The translations under genes were made by a program, and so were the position numbers. From Halobacteriovoraceae bacterium (GTDB taxonomy: Bacteria; Bdellovibrionota; Bacteriovoracia; Bacteriovoracales; Bacteriovoracaceae), in assembly GCA_002711995.1 (NCBI GenBank), contig PASN01000010.1, forward strand, positions 1-63,005: 63,005 nucleotides of DNA, in the 5' to 3' direction. This document shows, one piece after another, positions 1 to 56,637 of this stretch; position 1 is the first letter of the stretch; every line of letters begins with the position of its first letter. The notes under the pieces were generated by a model. That model saw nothing but the letters and a program-made list of their open reading frames with translations. It ran no database searches and was not told the origin of the DNA.

Positions 1-264
1 ATGGGGGCAGAAATAAGTGGTCCTATGGGGGCAGAAAAAAGTGGTCCTATGGGGGCAGAAATAAGTGGTCCTATGGGGGCAGAAAAAAGTGGTTCTATAG
101 GGGCAGAAAAAAGTGGTCCTATGGGGGCAGAGAAAAGTGGTCCTATAGGGGCAGAAAAAAGTGGTCCTATGGGGGCAGAAAAAAGTGGTCCTATGGGGGC
201 AGAAAAAAGTGGTCCTATGGGGGCAGAAAAAAGTGGTTCTATAGGGGCAGAAAAAAATGAATCT
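1..264 (+). repeat. 24-bp in-frame tandem repeat, 11 visible units (minisatellite)
   Basis: Eleven contiguous 24-bp units run from base 1 to 264 and may continue upstream. Unit starts are 1, 25, 49, 73, 97, 121, 145, 169, 193, 217 and 241. Each encodes the octapeptide [M/I]GAE[K/I]SG[P/S]; the last unit is degenerate (IGAEKNES). Variation between units is a few single-base changes, as expected from recent slippage or recombination. Because 24 is divisible by three, copy-number change would lengthen or shorten the protein without breaking the frame. There are no spacers, so it is not a CRISPR. Confidence 0.97.
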
Positions 265-612
265 ATAGGAAAAAATATTGTAAGTAGCTGTAATAATGTT
301 GCTAGAACCGTGATATGCTCTTTGAAAGTGGGTGAGTCTCAAGTAATTGATTTGTTAACTAAACTGGCCGATCAAAAGTATTCTCAAATGGTCACGCATG
401 AGCCAATACTTCTTAAACGGCATAAACAAAAAATATTGGAAATTTCTGGGATTATTGATGAATATGGTCAATTACTTAGCGAAGAATCCGATATATCAAT
501 AATTTCCTCTGAACTTAATAACATAGGCCATTGTATTTCAGAATTGATTGGTATAGTGTCTCCCGACGACGTTTTGCACAATATTTTCGATAACTTTTGT
601 ATTGGAAAGTAA
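1..612 (+). CDS. mnmE: tRNA modification GTPase MnmE, C-terminal part (5' end outside window)
   Basis: MnmE works with MnmG to install the (carboxymethyl)aminomethyl group on wobble uridine 34 of several tRNAs. Only the end of the protein is visible. It closes with the family's signature FCIGK, preceded by the helical domain (from about THEPILLKRHKQ onward). ICSLKVGE, about residues 106-113, fits the G5 switch region (family SALKGEG/SARTGEG). Everything before it, residues 1-88, is an octapeptide repeat (MGAEKSGP and variants) that lies where the loop between G4 (NKxD) and G5 belongs. The ATG at base 1 is simply a repeat codon, so the real start and the GTPase P-loop must lie upstream of the window. 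mnmG follows after 23 bases. The family assignment rests on the C-terminus and the mnmG neighbour. The position of the insert is my alignment by eye. Confidence 0.85.
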   Translation: MGAEISGPMGAEKSGPMGAEISGPMGAEKSGSIGAEKSGPMGAEKSGPIGAEKSGPMGAEKSGPMGAEKSGPMGAEKSGSIGAEKNESIGKNIVSSCNNVARTVICSLKVGESQVIDLLTKLADQKYSQMVTHEPILLKRHKQKILEISGIIDEYGQLLSEESDISIISSELNNIGHCISELIGIVSPDDVLHNIFDNFCIGK

Positions 613-614
613 CT

Positions 615-630
615 TGTTCTACGTGGAACA
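615..630. other. parS: parS-like centromere site 1 (between mnmE and mnmG)
   Basis: The 16-mer TGTTCTACGTGGAACA is one base away from the perfect palindrome TGTTCCACGTGGAACA, which matches the widely conserved chromosomal parS. It lies in the 23-base mnmE-mnmG gap, 2.5 kb upstream of parA. It is the likely loading site of the ParB encoded at 4046. Confidence 0.85.
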
Positions 631-635
631 CTTTT

Positions 636-2477
636 ATGGAAAAATTCTTTGATATCATTGTAGTTGGTGGTGGACATGCTGGGATTGAAGCAGCTCACAT
701 TGCAAGCCAATTTTCAAATCTAAAAATAGCAATAATAACCCTTCCTGGCTTAGGTCTGGGCTCGGCTCCTTGTAATCCAAGTGTTGGAGGGGTGGGGAAG
801 GGACAGGTTGTAAGAGAGTTGGATGCTCTAGGTGGGTTAATGCCTAAATTGGCTGACTTGGCTGGTATTCAATATCGTACCTTAAATGAAAGTAAGGGTT
901 ACGCTGTTCAGTCTACAAGAGTTCAAATCGATAAAACATTCTACACTGAAGTTGCTGAAAAGCTCATTAGTGAAATTGACAATATTTCTGTCATTCGTGA
1001 AAAGGTTGAATCCATCGTAGAAGGTGACGGTGGTTTTATAATAAAAACGGATTGTTCCACGTGGAACTGTAAAAAAGTCATTGTTACTGTTGGGACTTTC
1101 TTAAATGGCAAGCTGCATTTAGGTAAAGAGCAAACCACAGGTGGGAGGTATGGTAGTGAGTCTTCCGGTGCACTATCAAGTATCTTTGATAAAGTAAAAA
1201 CAGCACCTAAAAGGTTTAAAACGGGTACACCACCTAGATTGAATAAAGAGACTGTTGATCTTTCTAAGCTTGAAGAGCAGCCAAGTGACTGTGAAGTTCG
1301 AAATTTTCACTTTTTACACAGCCCTTATTCCAGGAATCTTCAACAGGTTTCTTGTTATTTGGCTAGGACCAATGAAGAAACAATCCAGGCCATTAAGGAC
1401 AATATGCATGATAGTCCTATGTATAATGGGCAAATTAACGCTGTAGGTGCTAGGTATTGCCCAAGTATAGAGGATAAAGTTAATAGATACCCAGATAAAT
1501 CGAATCACCACGTGTTTGTTGAGCCTGAAGGGCTCAATGAGTCTACAATGTATCCAAGTGGTATAAGCTCTTCACTTCCGCGAGCAGCTCAAGAAAGAAT
1601 GATAAATTCAATCTCAGGTTTGGAGAATGCTAAGATAGAAGTATATGGGTATGCAGTAGAGTACGATGTTGTTGATACAACTGAGTTAAGCTATGGCCTT
1701 GAGTATAAGAACGTTGAAGGTTTGTATTTCGCTGGTCAGGTGAATGGCACTTCTGGCTATGAAGAGGCAGCCGGACAGGGATATATAGCGGGTGTAAACG
1801 CGGCTCTATCTATATTTGATAGGGAGGTTTTTACTTTATCGCGTAACGAATCTTATATTGGAGTCATGATTGAAGATCTTATTTCAAATCTTCGTGATGA
1901 ACCATACAGATTATTCACTGCTCGATCTGAAAATCGACTTTATATTCGTGAAGACAATTCGATTATTAGACTTCATGCCAAAAGGCAATCTTTAGGCCTT
2001 GAAATGGCAGTTGATAAGTTTAATTCCCAGTTTATCAAAGTATATAATGTGATGTTTGGTCTACTAAAGGAATACTATGTGGACAATTCACATGGATTTA
2101 TTAAGAATTCAGATTTAAAACTACCAAGACGAATGTCTGTATCTGAGCTTTTGAAGCAGTCTAAGGTGGATCCGGTTCATCTGGCTAAAGAATTTTTTAA
2201 CTTTATGGGTATTTCTATATCTGAGGCTTTAATCTGGTGTCTTGCCGTCAGTAATAAGTATGAAGGCTATATTAACAAATCAGCTGAGCACAATGAACGA
2301 TTAAAGCGTCTAGATAACATGAAGATAGATTGGAAAGACCTCATTTCCTCAGAGAATATTTCATTTGAATGCAAAAGAAGGATAGAAAGGATAAAACCGG
2401 TGTCCTTCGGCCAATTAAAGCTGATTGAAGGGATCCGTCCAGCTACCTTGGCCGCCGTGGCAGGGAAATCGATATGA
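636..2477 (+). CDS. mnmG: tRNA uridine-5-carboxymethylaminomethyl(34) synthesis enzyme MnmG (GidA)
   Basis: FAD-dependent partner of MnmE in wobble-U34 modification, cytoplasmic. Residues 7-16 (IIVVGGGHAG) form the N-terminal dinucleotide-binding fold. They are followed by the family signature around PCNPSVGGVGKGQVVRELD and GGLMPKLADLAGIQYR. The C-terminal helical domain ends near KLIEGIRPATLAAVAG, as in other MnmG proteins. About 613 residues is the usual length. The frame is open from 597, but ATG 636 gives the family N-terminus (MEKFFDIIVVGGG), and the 597 start would lie inside mnmE and across parS 1. The stop overlaps the rsmG start by four bases (ATGA). A second parS-like site lies inside the gene at 1053. 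Confidence 0.96.
   Translation: MEKFFDIIVVGGGHAGIEAAHIASQFSNLKIAIITLPGLGLGSAPCNPSVGGVGKGQVVRELDALGGLMPKLADLAGIQYRTLNESKGYAVQSTRVQIDKTFYTEVAEKLISEIDNISVIREKVESIVEGDGGFIIKTDCSTWNCKKVIVTVGTFLNGKLHLGKEQTTGGRYGSESSGALSSIFDKVKTAPKRFKTGTPPRLNKETVDLSKLEEQPSDCEVRNFHFLHSPYSRNLQQVSCYLARTNEETIQAIKDNMHDSPMYNGQINAVGARYCPSIEDKVNRYPDKSNHHVFVEPEGLNESTMYPSGISSSLPRAAQERMINSISGLENAKIEVYGYAVEYDVVDTTELSYGLEYKNVEGLYFAGQVNGTSGYEEAAGQGYIAGVNAALSIFDREVFTLSRNESYIGVMIEDLISNLRDEPYRLFTARSENRLYIREDNSIIRLHAKRQSLGLEMAVDKFNSQFIKVYNVMFGLLKEYYVDNSHGFIKNSDLKLPRRMSVSELLKQSKVDPVHLAKEFFNFMGISISEALIWCLAVSNKYEGYINKSAEHNERLKRLDNMKIDWKDLISSENISFECKRRIERIKPVSFGQLKLIEGIRPATLAAVAGKSI
1053..1068. other. parS: parS-like site 2 (inside mnmG)
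   Basis: TGTTCCACGTGGAACT matches the parS palindrome at 15 of 16 positions, with only the last base different. It lies inside mnmG and is read there as Cys-Ser-Thr-Trp-Asn, the same peptide that site 1 would encode in that frame. Confidence 0.85.
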
Positions 2478-3118
2478 TTGAAGAGTTCGCAAAAGATTAT
2501 TTTGATCTATTAGTAGGTGAATACGCCGGAATAAACCTTACTCGCATTAATGACTTCGATGAGTTTTATAATAAGCAGATTTTAGATTCAATTGAACCTA
2601 TACAGCAAAGTAAAATTTTTTTTGATGAAATAAAGGCAAAGGGAGCCTTTATTGATGTGGGCTTTGGTGGGGGATTTCCTCTGTTACCCCTAGCAAAAAT
2701 TTTACCTGAAATTCAATTCTTTGGGATAGAAACTAGAAATAAAAAGGTTAAGGTTGTTTCTGAAATAGCTAACAAGCTTGGTCTCAACAATATAAAGTTT
2801 TTACACTCAAGAATAGAAAATGTCTTAATTGATAGAAGTGCGGTATGTAGTCTAAAAGCTGTAGGCAAAGTTAATGATTTTCTAGAAAAGTTTAATAGTG
2901 ACCAAGATATTAGTGTTTATTTTTACAAGGGTCCGAACTTTTATGAACTAGAGGGTGATCAACTAAAAGTCGCTAAAAGAAACTGGTCTGTGAAGGAAGA
3001 GAGAGAAATCATTATACCTGGCACAGATAAAAGATATTTAATTGGTTTTGAACCTAAAAATGTTCCATGTGGAACAAAAAGAATCAAACAACTTGTCAAA
3101 GTTTCTGATATTACTTAA
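2474..3118 (+). CDS. rsmG: 16S rRNA (guanine527-N7)-methyltransferase RsmG (GidB)
   Basis: SAM-dependent enzyme that methylates G527 of 16S rRNA at N7; in many bacteria its loss gives low-level streptomycin resistance. The N-terminal NLTRI...QILDSI stretch (about residues 21-40) matches the family. The SAM loop is DVGFGGGFP at residues 61-69, where the usual form is DVGSGAGFPG. 214 residues is a normal length. It overlaps mnmG by four bases, so the two are translationally coupled. The third parS-like site falls near its 3' end (3061). Its place in the mnmE-mnmG-rsmG-parAB order is typical of regions close to oriC. Confidence 0.95.
   Translation: MIEEFAKDYFDLLVGEYAGINLTRINDFDEFYNKQILDSIEPIQQSKIFFDEIKAKGAFIDVGFGGGFPLLPLAKILPEIQFFGIETRNKKVKVVSEIANKLGLNNIKFLHSRIENVLIDRSAVCSLKAVGKVNDFLEKFNSDQDISVYFYKGPNFYELEGDQLKVAKRNWSVKEEREIIIPGTDKRYLIGFEPKNVPCGTKRIKQLVKVSDIT
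3061..3076. other. parS: parS-like site 3 (3' end of rsmG)
   Basis: TGTTCCATGTGGAACA differs from the perfect parS palindrome only at the central C-to-T. It lies in the last codons of rsmG, 76 bases before the parA start. Together with the sites at 615 and 1053 it makes a cluster of three within 2.5 kb. Confidence 0.83.
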
Positions 3119-3151: not shown

Positions 3152-4024
3152 ATGGCTAGAATAATTGCAATCGCAAATCAAAAAGGCGGGGTGGGTAAAA
3201 CCACTACAACAGTGAATCTCGCCGCATGCCTGGCTGCTGCCGAAAGAAGAACATTAATAGTTGACTTAGATCCTCAAGGTAATGCCAGTGTTGGACTTGG
3301 TGTTAATAAGGAATCTTTCACAAAGGCAAATGTCTATCATGCCATGATCGGTGAAGAAAATATTGAAAGCTGTATATATAAAACGGAATTAGATCACTTA
3401 GATATTTGTCCTTCGGATAATAATCTAATTGGCGCTGAAGTGGAGCTTATGCAGGCTTTCGCTAGAGAATCAAAACTAAAAAGTTCTTTGGAGGCAGTTG
3501 AAGCAAAGTATGATTACATTTTGATTGATTGCCCACCGTCTCTAAGTTTGCTTACTGTAAATGGTCTTAATTCAGCTGACTCCTACATTGTTCCTATGCA
3601 AACAGAATATTATGCTATGGAAGGTTTAGCTCAGCTTTTAAACACAGTGAAATTGATACAGCAAAACCTAAACCCCAAGCTTGAGAGGGAAGGAATTCTA
3701 CTCACTATGTATGATGGTAGAAATAATCTTTCAAAATTGGTTGCTCAGGAGATTAAAGAACATTTTCCTGAAGATACCTTTAAAACAATTATACCTAGGA
3801 ATGTTAAGCTTTCAGAATGTCCAAGTCATGGAAAGCCAATAATAATCTACGATATTACCTCAAAGGGCAGCGAAGCCTATTTGAATATGGCCAAGGAAAT
3901 AATCCTCAAAGAAAAACTTCGTGAAGAATCATCTCAAGAAAATCTTTCTCTAATGGATCAGGTCATCGATAAAAAACAAAGGGATGGCTTTGAAATCCCA
4001 AGTTTTGATGATTATCAGGTTTAA
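3152..4024 (+). CDS. parA: Chromosome-partitioning ATPase ParA (Soj)
   Basis: Deviant-Walker ATPase that moves ParB-parS complexes during chromosome segregation. The Walker A' box KGGVGKTT is at residues 11-18 with the signature lysines, followed by DLDPQGN (38-44) and the Walker B-like DYILIDCPPSLSLL. There is no N-terminal HTH domain, so this is the short chromosomal form; it ends with a roughly 35-residue polar tail. ATG 3152 follows an AGAGAGG-type ribosome site. parB starts 21 bases after its stop. Three parS-like sites lie directly upstream. Confidence 0.97.
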   Translation: MARIIAIANQKGGVGKTTTTVNLAACLAAAERRTLIVDLDPQGNASVGLGVNKESFTKANVYHAMIGEENIESCIYKTELDHLDICPSDNNLIGAEVELMQAFARESKLKSSLEAVEAKYDYILIDCPPSLSLLTVNGLNSADSYIVPMQTEYYAMEGLAQLLNTVKLIQQNLNPKLEREGILLTMYDGRNNLSKLVAQEIKEHFPEDTFKTIIPRNVKLSECPSHGKPIIIYDITSKGSEAYLNMAKEIILKEKLREESSQENLSLMDQVIDKKQRDGFEIPSFDDYQV

Positions 4025-4045: not shown

Positions 4046-4954
4046 ATGAAAGAGACGACTAAATCAAAAACTGCTTTAGGGAAAGGAATGGGAGCACTGT
4101 TAGGTTCTGGTGCATCTCCAATTCAAAGTAAGCCGATTGATAGCAAGCTTCAAGCAACGGGAGGACTAGTTCAAAACCCAAGCTTGTTACCTGTATCTAA
4201 AATCAAACCAAACAAAGAACAGCCAAGAAAAATCTTTAAAGATAAGGAATTAGCAGAGCTATCGGCTTCCATTAAAGAAAATGGAATCATCCAACCATTG
4301 ACAGTTCAAGCCAATGACGATGGATCTTTTTTACTTATCGCTGGTGAGCGTCGTTTAAGAGCGGCAAAGTTAGCAGGCCTTCAAGAAGTTCCAGTGACCA
4401 TTAAAAGAACTACAAAGAAAGATGTTCTTGTAATGGCCATCATTGAAAATGTTCAAAGATCTGATCTTAACTGTGTTGAAGAAGCACTTGCCTACTACCA
4501 ATTGATGAATGAGTTTGACCTCACTCAAGAGGAAGTCGCAAAAAAAATAGGAAAAGAACGTTCGACCATTGCTAACTTTCTAAGAATTTTAAAACTTCCT
4601 AGAGAAGTTATTCAGCATCTTCAGAAAGAGGCTTTAAGCTTTGGACATGCCAAAGTATTAGCTGCAGTAAAAGATGACGAGAAAGCGAAGAGATTGTCAC
4701 GAGAGGCAATTGATAATAACTGGTCTGTACGTGAGCTAGAGAAAAACATTAAGTCGGCTAAGAAGCCTTCATCTAGGGAAGTAACTAATCCTTACTTTGA
4801 TGAAAAGCTTGACTCTATCAAACGTAAATTAGAGGAAAAAACTGGCTACCACTTCGACTTAAAGACAAAGTCTAACGGTGCTGGTACAATTACTATCAAA
4901 TATAGCAATGAAGCTGAATTTAATGATATTTTCGAATACCTAGTTTCGAAATAA
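4046..4954 (+). CDS. parB: Chromosome-partitioning CTPase/DNA-binding protein ParB (Spo0J)
   Basis: Binds parS and spreads as a CTP-dependent clamp. The N-terminal LGKGMGALLG (residues 11-20) resembles the ParA-stimulating tail of ParB proteins. The CTP-binding boxes are GERRLRAAK (100-108) and ENVQRSDLN (134-142). A helix-turn-helix follows (LTQEEVAKKIGKERSTIANF, about 155-175), then a C-terminal dimerisation domain. 302 residues is normal. ATG 4046 is preceded by a GGGAGAGGG-type ribosome site. It forms an operon with parA and is followed 29 bases later by a bactofilin gene, an arrangement that suggests the scaffold and the partition system work together. Confidence 0.96.
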   Translation: MKETTKSKTALGKGMGALLGSGASPIQSKPIDSKLQATGGLVQNPSLLPVSKIKPNKEQPRKIFKDKELAELSASIKENGIIQPLTVQANDDGSFLLIAGERRLRAAKLAGLQEVPVTIKRTTKKDVLVMAIIENVQRSDLNCVEEALAYYQLMNEFDLTQEEVAKKIGKERSTIANFLRILKLPREVIQHLQKEALSFGHAKVLAAVKDDEKAKRLSREAIDNNWSVRELEKNIKSAKKPSSREVTNPYFDEKLDSIKRKLEEKTGYHFDLKTKSNGAGTITIKYSNEAEFNDIFEYLVSK

Positions 4955-4983: not shown

Positions 4984-5319
4984 GTGAGTTCTAAAAACGA
5001 AATTTGTGCAATTATAGAGGAAGGTTGCCGCTTTGAGGGCAACCTATCTTTTAATGGAATTGTCCGTATCTCTGGCGTGGTAACAGGTAGTATCTTCTCC
5101 AATGACACTCTAGTTGTCTCTGAAGGGGCTGTAATCAATGCTGACATCAATGCCAGTGTAATTCTAATCTCTGGCACAGTTAAAGGAAACATAAAGGCCA
5201 CTTCAAGGGTTGAGATAAGAAAGCCTGCCAGATTTGAAGGTACTGTCACTTCTCCAAGTCTTATTGTTGAAGAAGGGGTGATTTTCCACGGAATCACTAA
5301 AATGAAGGATAAAAAATAA
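4984..5319 (+). CDS. Bactofilin (DUF583 cytoskeletal scaffold)
   Basis: Bactofilins polymerise without nucleotide into beta-helical filaments that position proteins at membranes or poles. The 111 residues are almost entirely the bactofilin beta-helix: a repetitive series of short strands rich in V, I and G, such as GIVRISGVVTG and LISGTVKGNIKA, with short polar ends. The start is GTG 4984 with GGGAGCGA just upstream. It is the last gene of the parAB block. In Myxococcus xanthus, bactofilins encoded with parAB help anchor ParABS. A similar role here is inferred from context only. Confidence 0.9.
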   Translation: MSSKNEICAIIEEGCRFEGNLSFNGIVRISGVVTGSIFSNDTLVVSEGAVINADINASVILISGTVKGNIKATSRVEIRKPARFEGTVTSPSLIVEEGVIFHGITKMKDKK

Positions 5320-11188: not shown

Positions 11189-11216
11189 AACGGCTCCTTT
11201 TGGAGCCGTTTTTTTT
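11189..11216 (+). terminator. Intrinsic terminator after atpC
   Basis: A perfect 9-bp stem, AACGGCTCC (11189-11197) with GGAGCCGTT (11202-11210), encloses a TTTT loop and runs into a T tract. It closes the ATP synthase transcript. A separate 14-bp perfect palindrome, GGTCCTATAGGACC, follows at 11217-11230. Confidence 0.95.
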
Positions 11217-11332
11217 GGTCCTATAGGACCAGTCTCTTCTGACTATTCACTAAAAAACCTCCTGAATATTCACAAAATGGCCTTGGCTAATCACAAAGTG
11301 ACCTAAACAGCTTTGCCTGGGTTTAAAAATTT

Positions 11333-55634: not shown

Positions 55635-56637
55635 TTGCGGCTCCTAGCGCTATAATATCATTTCCAAGGTCTGCTTTAAAAAACCAACCTGGCACCAGCC
55701 GTCTAAGAAGTGTCAAACCAAAAACCGGTTGGTCTTGTCCAAGCTCGTTTATTAAGTTTTCTTCCTTCGCGTTTAGGGTGGGGTCGTTGCTCTGTCCAGC
55801 ATTGGGGCTGGAGACGTTGTAAATTTGATAACCAACATACGGCATTATGTAAGAATAGAGTGGGGCCTTGAATGTGTATTTTAACCTTATTGTAAAATTG
55901 TTAACTAATGTCTGGGTGCTTTGTGCTGGAAAGTTGCTAAGCAATGTCCGACCATAAAGTCCCTCGGCCCAATAGTTGTCGTTGAATTGATATGCCCAAC
56001 TGAAGGCCCACTGAGTTCCAATCTTTGTTTCAGTCTCTGGAAGCAATGTGTTCTCAAAGCTATACTGAGACCACGCGGCTCCCACCACATTGTCGGTTCT
56101 AATGTATCTATTGTCTTTGGAGAAGAAATCGACATCTTCTTCGATGATGCCCTCATCGATTTGGTAAAGATCTTCTTCAGACTCTATTTTTCCTTCCTCT
56201 TCAACTTCTTTCTTTTCTTCTTTAACAAAAAGTCTTGAGTCATCACCTTTTAGAATTCCTACCTCTAGGCCTTTTTTTAATGAACTCCATCTCTTTAAGG
56301 AATAAATTTTTATAATCTTTATTCCAGCTAGGGAGTCGTGGGTTTTACCAACCAGTGCCCTTGCGACGGGATCTTTTTCACCTAAGACAAGTGTGATGAA
56401 GTCACCCTTGTTTAGCATTTCGTTGGTATTGGTGAGGATGAAAATCTTTTGGCTTCTAGAGATAATTCTGACTGTTTCAGTGAAAATTTCAGTGCTAGCG
56501 CCAAAACCATCTGGTGAGGAGATGTCACTGACCAAGCTTTGAGCGTAAATTTTATTTACACACAGCGCAAAACCTGTAAATGTAAGAAAAAAAGTAATTT
56601 TTAATATTTTCGACAAGTTATATCCATCCTTCCACAT
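55624..56637 (-). CDS. Exported protein, probable outer-membrane barrel
   Basis: About 337 residues from ATG 56637; the frame is open to 56658, and TTG 56616 behind AGGATGGA is an alternative. Signal region KITFFLTFTGFALCVNKIYA. An N-terminal soluble domain of about 110 residues (RIISRSQKIFILTNTNEMLNKGDFITLVLG, resembling an SH3-like/flagellar-hook-type beta domain but not assignable) is followed by an acidic linker. The C-terminal part has strand-like aromatic repeats (FSWAYQFNDNYWAEGLYGRT) and ends NDIIALGAAIEF, a barrel-type terminus. Function unknown. Confidence 0.65.
   Translation of the reverse strand: MWKDGYNLSKILKITFFLTFTGFALCVNKIYAQSLVSDISSPDGFGASTEIFTETVRIISRSQKIFILTNTNEMLNKGDFITLVLGEKDPVARALVGKTHDSLAGIKIIKIYSLKRWSSLKKGLEVGILKGDDSRLFVKEEKKEVEEEGKIESEEDLYQIDEGIIEEDVDFFSKDNRYIRTDNVVGAAWSQYSFENTLLPETETKIGTQWAFSWAYQFNDNYWAEGLYGRTLLSNFPAQSTQTLVNNFTIRLKYTFKAPLYSYIMPYVGYQIYNVSSPNAGQSNDPTLNAKEENLINELGQDQPVFGLTLLRRLVPGWFFKADLGNDIIALGAAIEF

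Follow-up and report, generated by a model that had tools for sequence, protein, structure and literature searches.

The start of contig C7 of a Halobacteriovoraceae bacterium (3.7-Mb assembly, 23 contigs) lies within mnmE, and the 24-bp tandem array that the gene carries there is probably a cluster of DNA-binding sites close to the replication origin instead of a feature of the MnmE protein. We analyzed the first 63 kb of this contig (G000:C7:1-63005; here called the window) together with relatives from its class of predatory bacteria, sampled as the genomes labelled Bacteriovoracia or Bacteriovoracaceae in their records. The conserved element is a 16-bp palindrome of the TGGTYCTATAGRACCA family, in which half-sites GGACC, GAACC, or GGGGC surround TATA or TATG. 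These sites likely form a cluster of putative protein-binding sites near the origin that is class-wide and previously undescribed; in the literature searched, including for the exact motif strings, no description of them or of such MnmE inserts was found, in agreement with an earlier note on this DNA, which knew of no MnmE with an insertion of this kind.

The core palindrome, GGTYCTATAGRACC, has T and A as flanks, and each of the amino acid alternatives in the encoded peptides (P/S, I/M, G/E, and P/A) corresponds to a single base change within it. The half-sites interchange, with 379 sites in a scan of the collection having both halves drawn from the GGACC/GAACC/GGGGC set. Codon choice is nearly fixed where the sites are read in frame: the first codon at 97 in-frame sites is GGT in 91 and GCC (the Ala form) in 6, serine is encoded by TCT in 35 of 35, and isoleucine is encoded by ATA in 69, by ATC in 5, and by ATT in none, ATT being the most common isoleucine codon in those regions (59%). 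Likewise, GGG is found exclusively before GC (34/34) and GGA or GAA exclusively before CC (63/63). Copies inside one array are not independent of each other; nonetheless, the codon pattern is found across about 20 genera.

Most sites are in frame in mnmE and fewer are in gaps. The origin regions of relatives include 33 sites that are intergenic, straddle a gene boundary, or fall in another frame, with the same T...A flanks. The intergenic copies occupy the gaps between parB and the bactofilin gene, downstream of atpC, and between rsmG and mnmG, mnmE and yidC, and mnmE and mnmG, while out-of-frame copies are found inside dnaA, mnmG, rnpA, and parA. Spacing within mnmE is mostly 24, 27, or 30 bp, and intergenic neighbors are 22–37 bp apart. 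One relative (locus L158) encodes an ordinary MnmE (463 codons from stop to stop), directly past the stop codon of which are five sites, 27 and 29 bp apart. Based on the codon fixation, the intergenic copies, and L158, we reject selection at the level of the peptide; selection very probably acts on the DNA.

The earlier note had interpreted the array as an octapeptide minisatellite, a contingency locus whose copy number would tune the GTPase speed of MnmE and thereby the modification of wobble uridine. In line with that proposal, the genome of the window has in-frame units that are almost identical, the insertion falls within the G domain close to G5, and species differ in their number of units. 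However, it is the residues that vary and the DNA half-sites and synonymous bases that are fixed, the same DNA is found between genes and out of frame, the array of L158 lies outside MnmE, and the inserted peptide is predicted to be disordered (discussed below), which makes tuning of the enzyme very unlikely. An element acting at the RNA level, in the form of hairpins in the mnmE transcript, would agree with the strong folding of the array as RNA (z = -13), as expected of any tandem palindrome. This explanation is extremely improbable because the stem of the most common in-frame heterodimer of half-sites would contain a C.A mismatch (130 sites, versus 34 of the pairable U.G form); moreover, the sites are also intergenic.

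The distribution of the sites points to the origin. Of the 25 family genomes and 116 class genomes scanned, most contain more sites than a reversed-pattern control gives; most listed positions are within about 20 kb of dnaA, and in the genomes listed the strict sites nearly all cluster near mnmE and parB. The cluster region is dnaA-mnmE-parAB-atp, placing the new sites, as is typical of parS, near oriC; outside this region there are few stray matches, near control levels. The palindrome-family pattern has 17 matches in the window versus 1.46 expected from shuffling, and in the genome to which the window belongs the relaxed pattern is found almost only at mnmE. The strict pattern is present in nearly all sampled class genomes, as well as in a handful of other genomes of the phylum, at a single place in each. 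Among the four site-poor genomes that were checked (G058, G076, G121, and G131), G121 contains two and one sites per strand and the others at most one per strand. A true mnmE match was sought in all four and none was found, and we therefore conclude that the origin contig is missing from these assemblies.

A scan for paired sites in 84,980 named genomes identified 70 loci, 69 of which contain mnmE, par, or atp genes; the lone Streptomyces locus lacks these genes and was taken as a chance match. The loci are labelled mostly Bacteriovoracaceae, Halobacteriovorax, and Bacteriovorax, along with a few metagenome bins with vague or other labels, and the cultured Bacteriovorax sp. BSW11_IV is a carrier (L159, L178).

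Rickettsia palindromic elements are likewise DNA palindromes tolerated in frame in protein-coding genes; they are longer and are dispersed over the genome. Mobile or selfish short repeats of this type, inserting in frame, could account for sites that are palindromic, at times intergenic, and tolerated in coding frames. The new sites, in contrast, are 16 bp in length and fixed at the origin, without many copies genome-wide, the stray matches elsewhere being near control levels. The repeated part is just 14–16 bp and many genera keep the same place, which leaves this explanation with hardly any probability.

In the window's genome, mnmE is intact as one gene. The window begins in the C-terminal part of the MnmE frame, which ends in FCIGK, and Tandem Repeats Finder (TRF) reports the array with a period of 24 and 94% matches. 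The start of contig C18 encodes the N-terminal part, including G1 (GQPNSGKS), G3 (DTAG), a G4-like THSD, and 6.6 further units. The ends of C18 and C7 have exactly 98 nt in common, indicating that the assembler graph broke inside the repeat; joined over this overlap, the two contigs yield a single uninterrupted frame (615 codons, 13 units). The N-terminal domain, the G domain, and the C-terminal FC[IL]GK of MnmE (TIGR00450) are all contained in this one frame, which bears out the earlier note's view of an in-frame repeat in an otherwise complete MnmE, including the upstream region and motifs that it had proposed to look for. The true number of units is uncertain because the assembly graph branched inside the array. 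Such a break would fit a unit number that varies within a clone, although it does not demonstrate one. A second mnmE was searched for in the same genome and none was found, and we accordingly rejected a pseudogene, or a remnant beside a complete ordinary mnmE, a case that the note had named as its own refutation. An assembly artefact accounts for the contig break but for neither the array nor the sites found class-wide.

Comparable mnmE inserts occur in about twenty relatives from the class, as found in the comparison of Bacteriovoracia MnmE proteins that the note had suggested. Most relatives in the family have long MnmE frames of 480–600 codons, and the family profile ends near G4. Their insert units, including GPIGP, GSIGA, GPIEP, and GPMGA, are irregularly spaced, and many relatives mix unit sequences and spacings; a homogeneous array is thus not a conserved feature, and the palindrome alone is common to them. 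In G005, G006, G012, G014, and G022, mnmE has no insert or just one or two sites. One genome (G077) contains two insert-bearing mnmE-like loci (L228, L238) and is possibly a mixed bin.

Across the class, the insert falls within the stretch from G4 to the helix that follows G5. Its assignment to the G domain near G5 in the note was correct, but the narrower placement between G4 and G5 does not hold throughout, as the exact position relative to G5 differs by genus and extends up to the helix after G5. A structure model of an intact relative (G009), which supplies the loop position that the note had proposed to model, shows an ordered MnmE with a disordered insert (predicted local distance difference test, pLDDT, 31–37 at residues 361–400) between the G4/G5 strands and the following helix. 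The G4 motif of the class (L001, and L058–L074 in relatives) is mostly [TS]HxD instead of NKxD, and, judging from this motif, nucleotide recognition at G4 may already be relaxed.

A palindrome of exchangeable half-sites that occurs in clusters, and only at the origin, is most readily explained as a set of sites for a dimeric DNA-binding protein, and we have good confidence that the array belongs to an origin-proximal protein-binding cluster. In the mechanism we propose, several palindromic sites, mostly 24–30 bp apart and a few kb from dnaA beside parS, would act as a cluster; a dimeric helix-turn-helix protein would bind it and assemble, at the origin, a nucleoprotein complex resembling a centromere; and MnmE would tolerate the in-frame sites as a disordered excursion of its G domain.

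One prospective binder is the ordinary ParB (ParB1). As with parS, the new sites are 16-bp palindromes found in multiple copies near oriC beside parAB, and the half-sites share TG.TYC (5/8 positions; chance about 0.04). ParB1 could bind new sites such as TGGTCCTATAGGACCA as an auxiliary class of parS, besides TGTTCCACGTGGAACA, which would agree with the occurrence of both within the same few kb. However, the new sites do not conform to the parS consensus TGTTYCACGTGRAACA, differing at three half-site positions, including both central ones, and separate parS-like sites coexist with them in every origin region examined. Furthermore, the DNA-binding domain of ParB1 is standard and other ParB-containing families of the phylum lack the sites, making ParB1 an unlikely binder. 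The new sites also differ from parS in that they are tandem-clustered about 24–30 bp apart and limited to one class.

The most likely single binder would be ParB2, another ParB-family protein, encoded by a second ParA2-ParB2 pair at G000:C16:160795-162468 (L077:2796-4469; ParB2 at L077:3597-4469). ParB2 is present in all 24 class genomes aligned (51–80% identity) with a recognition helix, GISKSEVHR, that is altered but nearly invariant; outside the class there are only weak ParB matches to it, with identity of at most 38%. It contains a ParB_N domain (PF02195, 61.5 bits) and the GERRxRA box of the ParB/Noc family, in the form CGERRFRAM. Among solved structures, the best match to the ParB2 profile is Noc (E 1e-23), aligned through the Noc DNA-binding domain, and a structure model of ParB2 matches the structures of ParB, Noc, and KorB. 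In our own alignment to the numbering of PMC7383237, three contact positions (171, 173, and 178) are occupied differently in ParB2 than in ParB, and position 184 of ParB2 is a lysine, a residue that is permissive for Noc-type specificity (PMC7383237). ParB2 is our leading candidate because of its near-invariant DNA-reading helix, its closest solved relatives being Noc and ParB, and the TG.TYC likeness of the half-site. On these features of sequence, this class-restricted ParB/Noc paralog may be the binder of the sites, an assignment we make tentatively and with somewhat less than even confidence. More tentative still is the possibility that ParA2-ParB2 could be a second chromosomal centromere system, loading on its own parS-like sites, TGGTYCTATAGRACCA, with the main cluster in frame in mnmE beside the ordinary parS.

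Several observations weigh against these proposals. No Pfam HTH_ParB match was found in ParB2, and the resemblance of the new half-site to parS is weak. ParB2 and the sites share one clade, which amounts to a single correlation and not to repeated co-gain. The array in the window's own genome is no more than half-palindromic, pairing GGTCC with GGGGC, and its regularity is unusual; recent tandem duplication therefore shapes it too. As for the site-poor genomes, the presence of ParB2 does not discriminate among them either way, because their origin contig is missing.

Alternatively, the sites could be bound by another class-specific protein unrelated to ParB, such as a nucleoid, initiation-control, or segregation factor, which we regard as an appreciable possibility that falls short of probable. 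The palindrome fits the site expected for a dimeric helix-turn-helix protein of this sort; however, a recurrent gene was looked for beside the few non-origin sites and none was found, which gives no indication of a regulator that controls its own gene.

With ParB2 as the candidate binder, the closest parallel would be Noc and its Noc-binding sites (NBS) in Bacillus nucleoid occlusion, a ParB paralog with a parS-like palindrome of its own, likewise 16 bp long. Of the solved structures, Noc is the nearest to ParB2, which in our own alignment also carries the lysine of the Noc type at position 184 (numbering of PMC7383237). In contrast to NBS, which are spread genome-wide with none near the terminus, the new sites are at the origin only, and ParB2 has a ParA2 gene as its partner and a recognition helix unlike that of Noc. 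In Bdellovibrio bacteriovorus, 242–330 bp of native parS flanks block ParB foci in non-replicating attack-phase cells, a block ascribed to an unknown Bdellovibrio-specific factor (PMC10547168). The extra sites in the relatives are similarly a few hundred bases from parS. As the new motif is essentially absent from the tested non-class Bdellovibrionota genomes, it is at most an analog of this context effect.

If a second centromere system is present, the origin would have two complexes for segregation or anchoring, each under its own control, which would suit filamentous, non-binary growth. In many genera, a conserved tRNA-modification enzyme very probably carries dozens of added residues for the sake of the underlying DNA, which is needed otherwise. 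The origin sites are newly recognized class-wide and have a ready candidate binder, and together they would offer a concrete site and protein for testing, in a class related to Bdellovibrio, how neighboring DNA controls the access of ParB to parS. The features of the window, including the ordinary ParABS system of the origin, are listed in Table 1.

Table 1. Features of the mnmE array, the palindromic sites, and the ordinary ParABS system, in window coordinates
Feature	Position	Strand	Remarks
24-bp tandem array	1..256	+	10.7 units in window, 13 in joined gene; one in-frame palindromic site per unit
mnmE, C-terminal part	1..612	+	Remainder on contig C18; C18/C7 overlap of 98 nt at window 1-98
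Ten palindrome-family sites	Starts 19, 43, 67, 91, 115, 139, 163, 187, 211, 235 (span 19..248)	No strand	Types GGTCCTATGGGGGC, GGTTCTATAGGGGC, GGTCCTATAGGGGC
parS-like site TGTTCTACGTGGAACA	615..630	No strand	1 mismatch; separate from new sites
parS-like site TGTTCCACGTGGAACT	1053..1068	No strand	1 mismatch; inside mnmG
parS-like site TGTTCCATGTGGAACA	3061..3076	No strand	1 mismatch; at rsmG end
parA, ordinary origin ParABS	3152..4024	+	–
parB, ordinary origin ParABS	4046..4954	+	ParB_N and HTH_ParB domains
Perfect 16-bp palindrome TGGTCCTATAGGACCA	11216..11231	No strand	Non-coding; between atpC terminator and next gene

Directly 3' of parB, the window contains a bactofilin gene (4984-5316), and in several relatives the gap at this place is filled with extra palindromic sites; a bactofilin gene directly after parB has likewise been reported in Bdellovibrio (PMC10547168). 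Elsewhere in the genome, a third, weaker ParB-domain protein of about 345 aa is found at G000:C6:378921-379163 (L102), with counterparts in many members of the family. A weak second 24-bp tandem repeat occurs at 56174-56220 of the window (2.0 copies, 79% matches), and its sequence is unrelated to the mnmE array.
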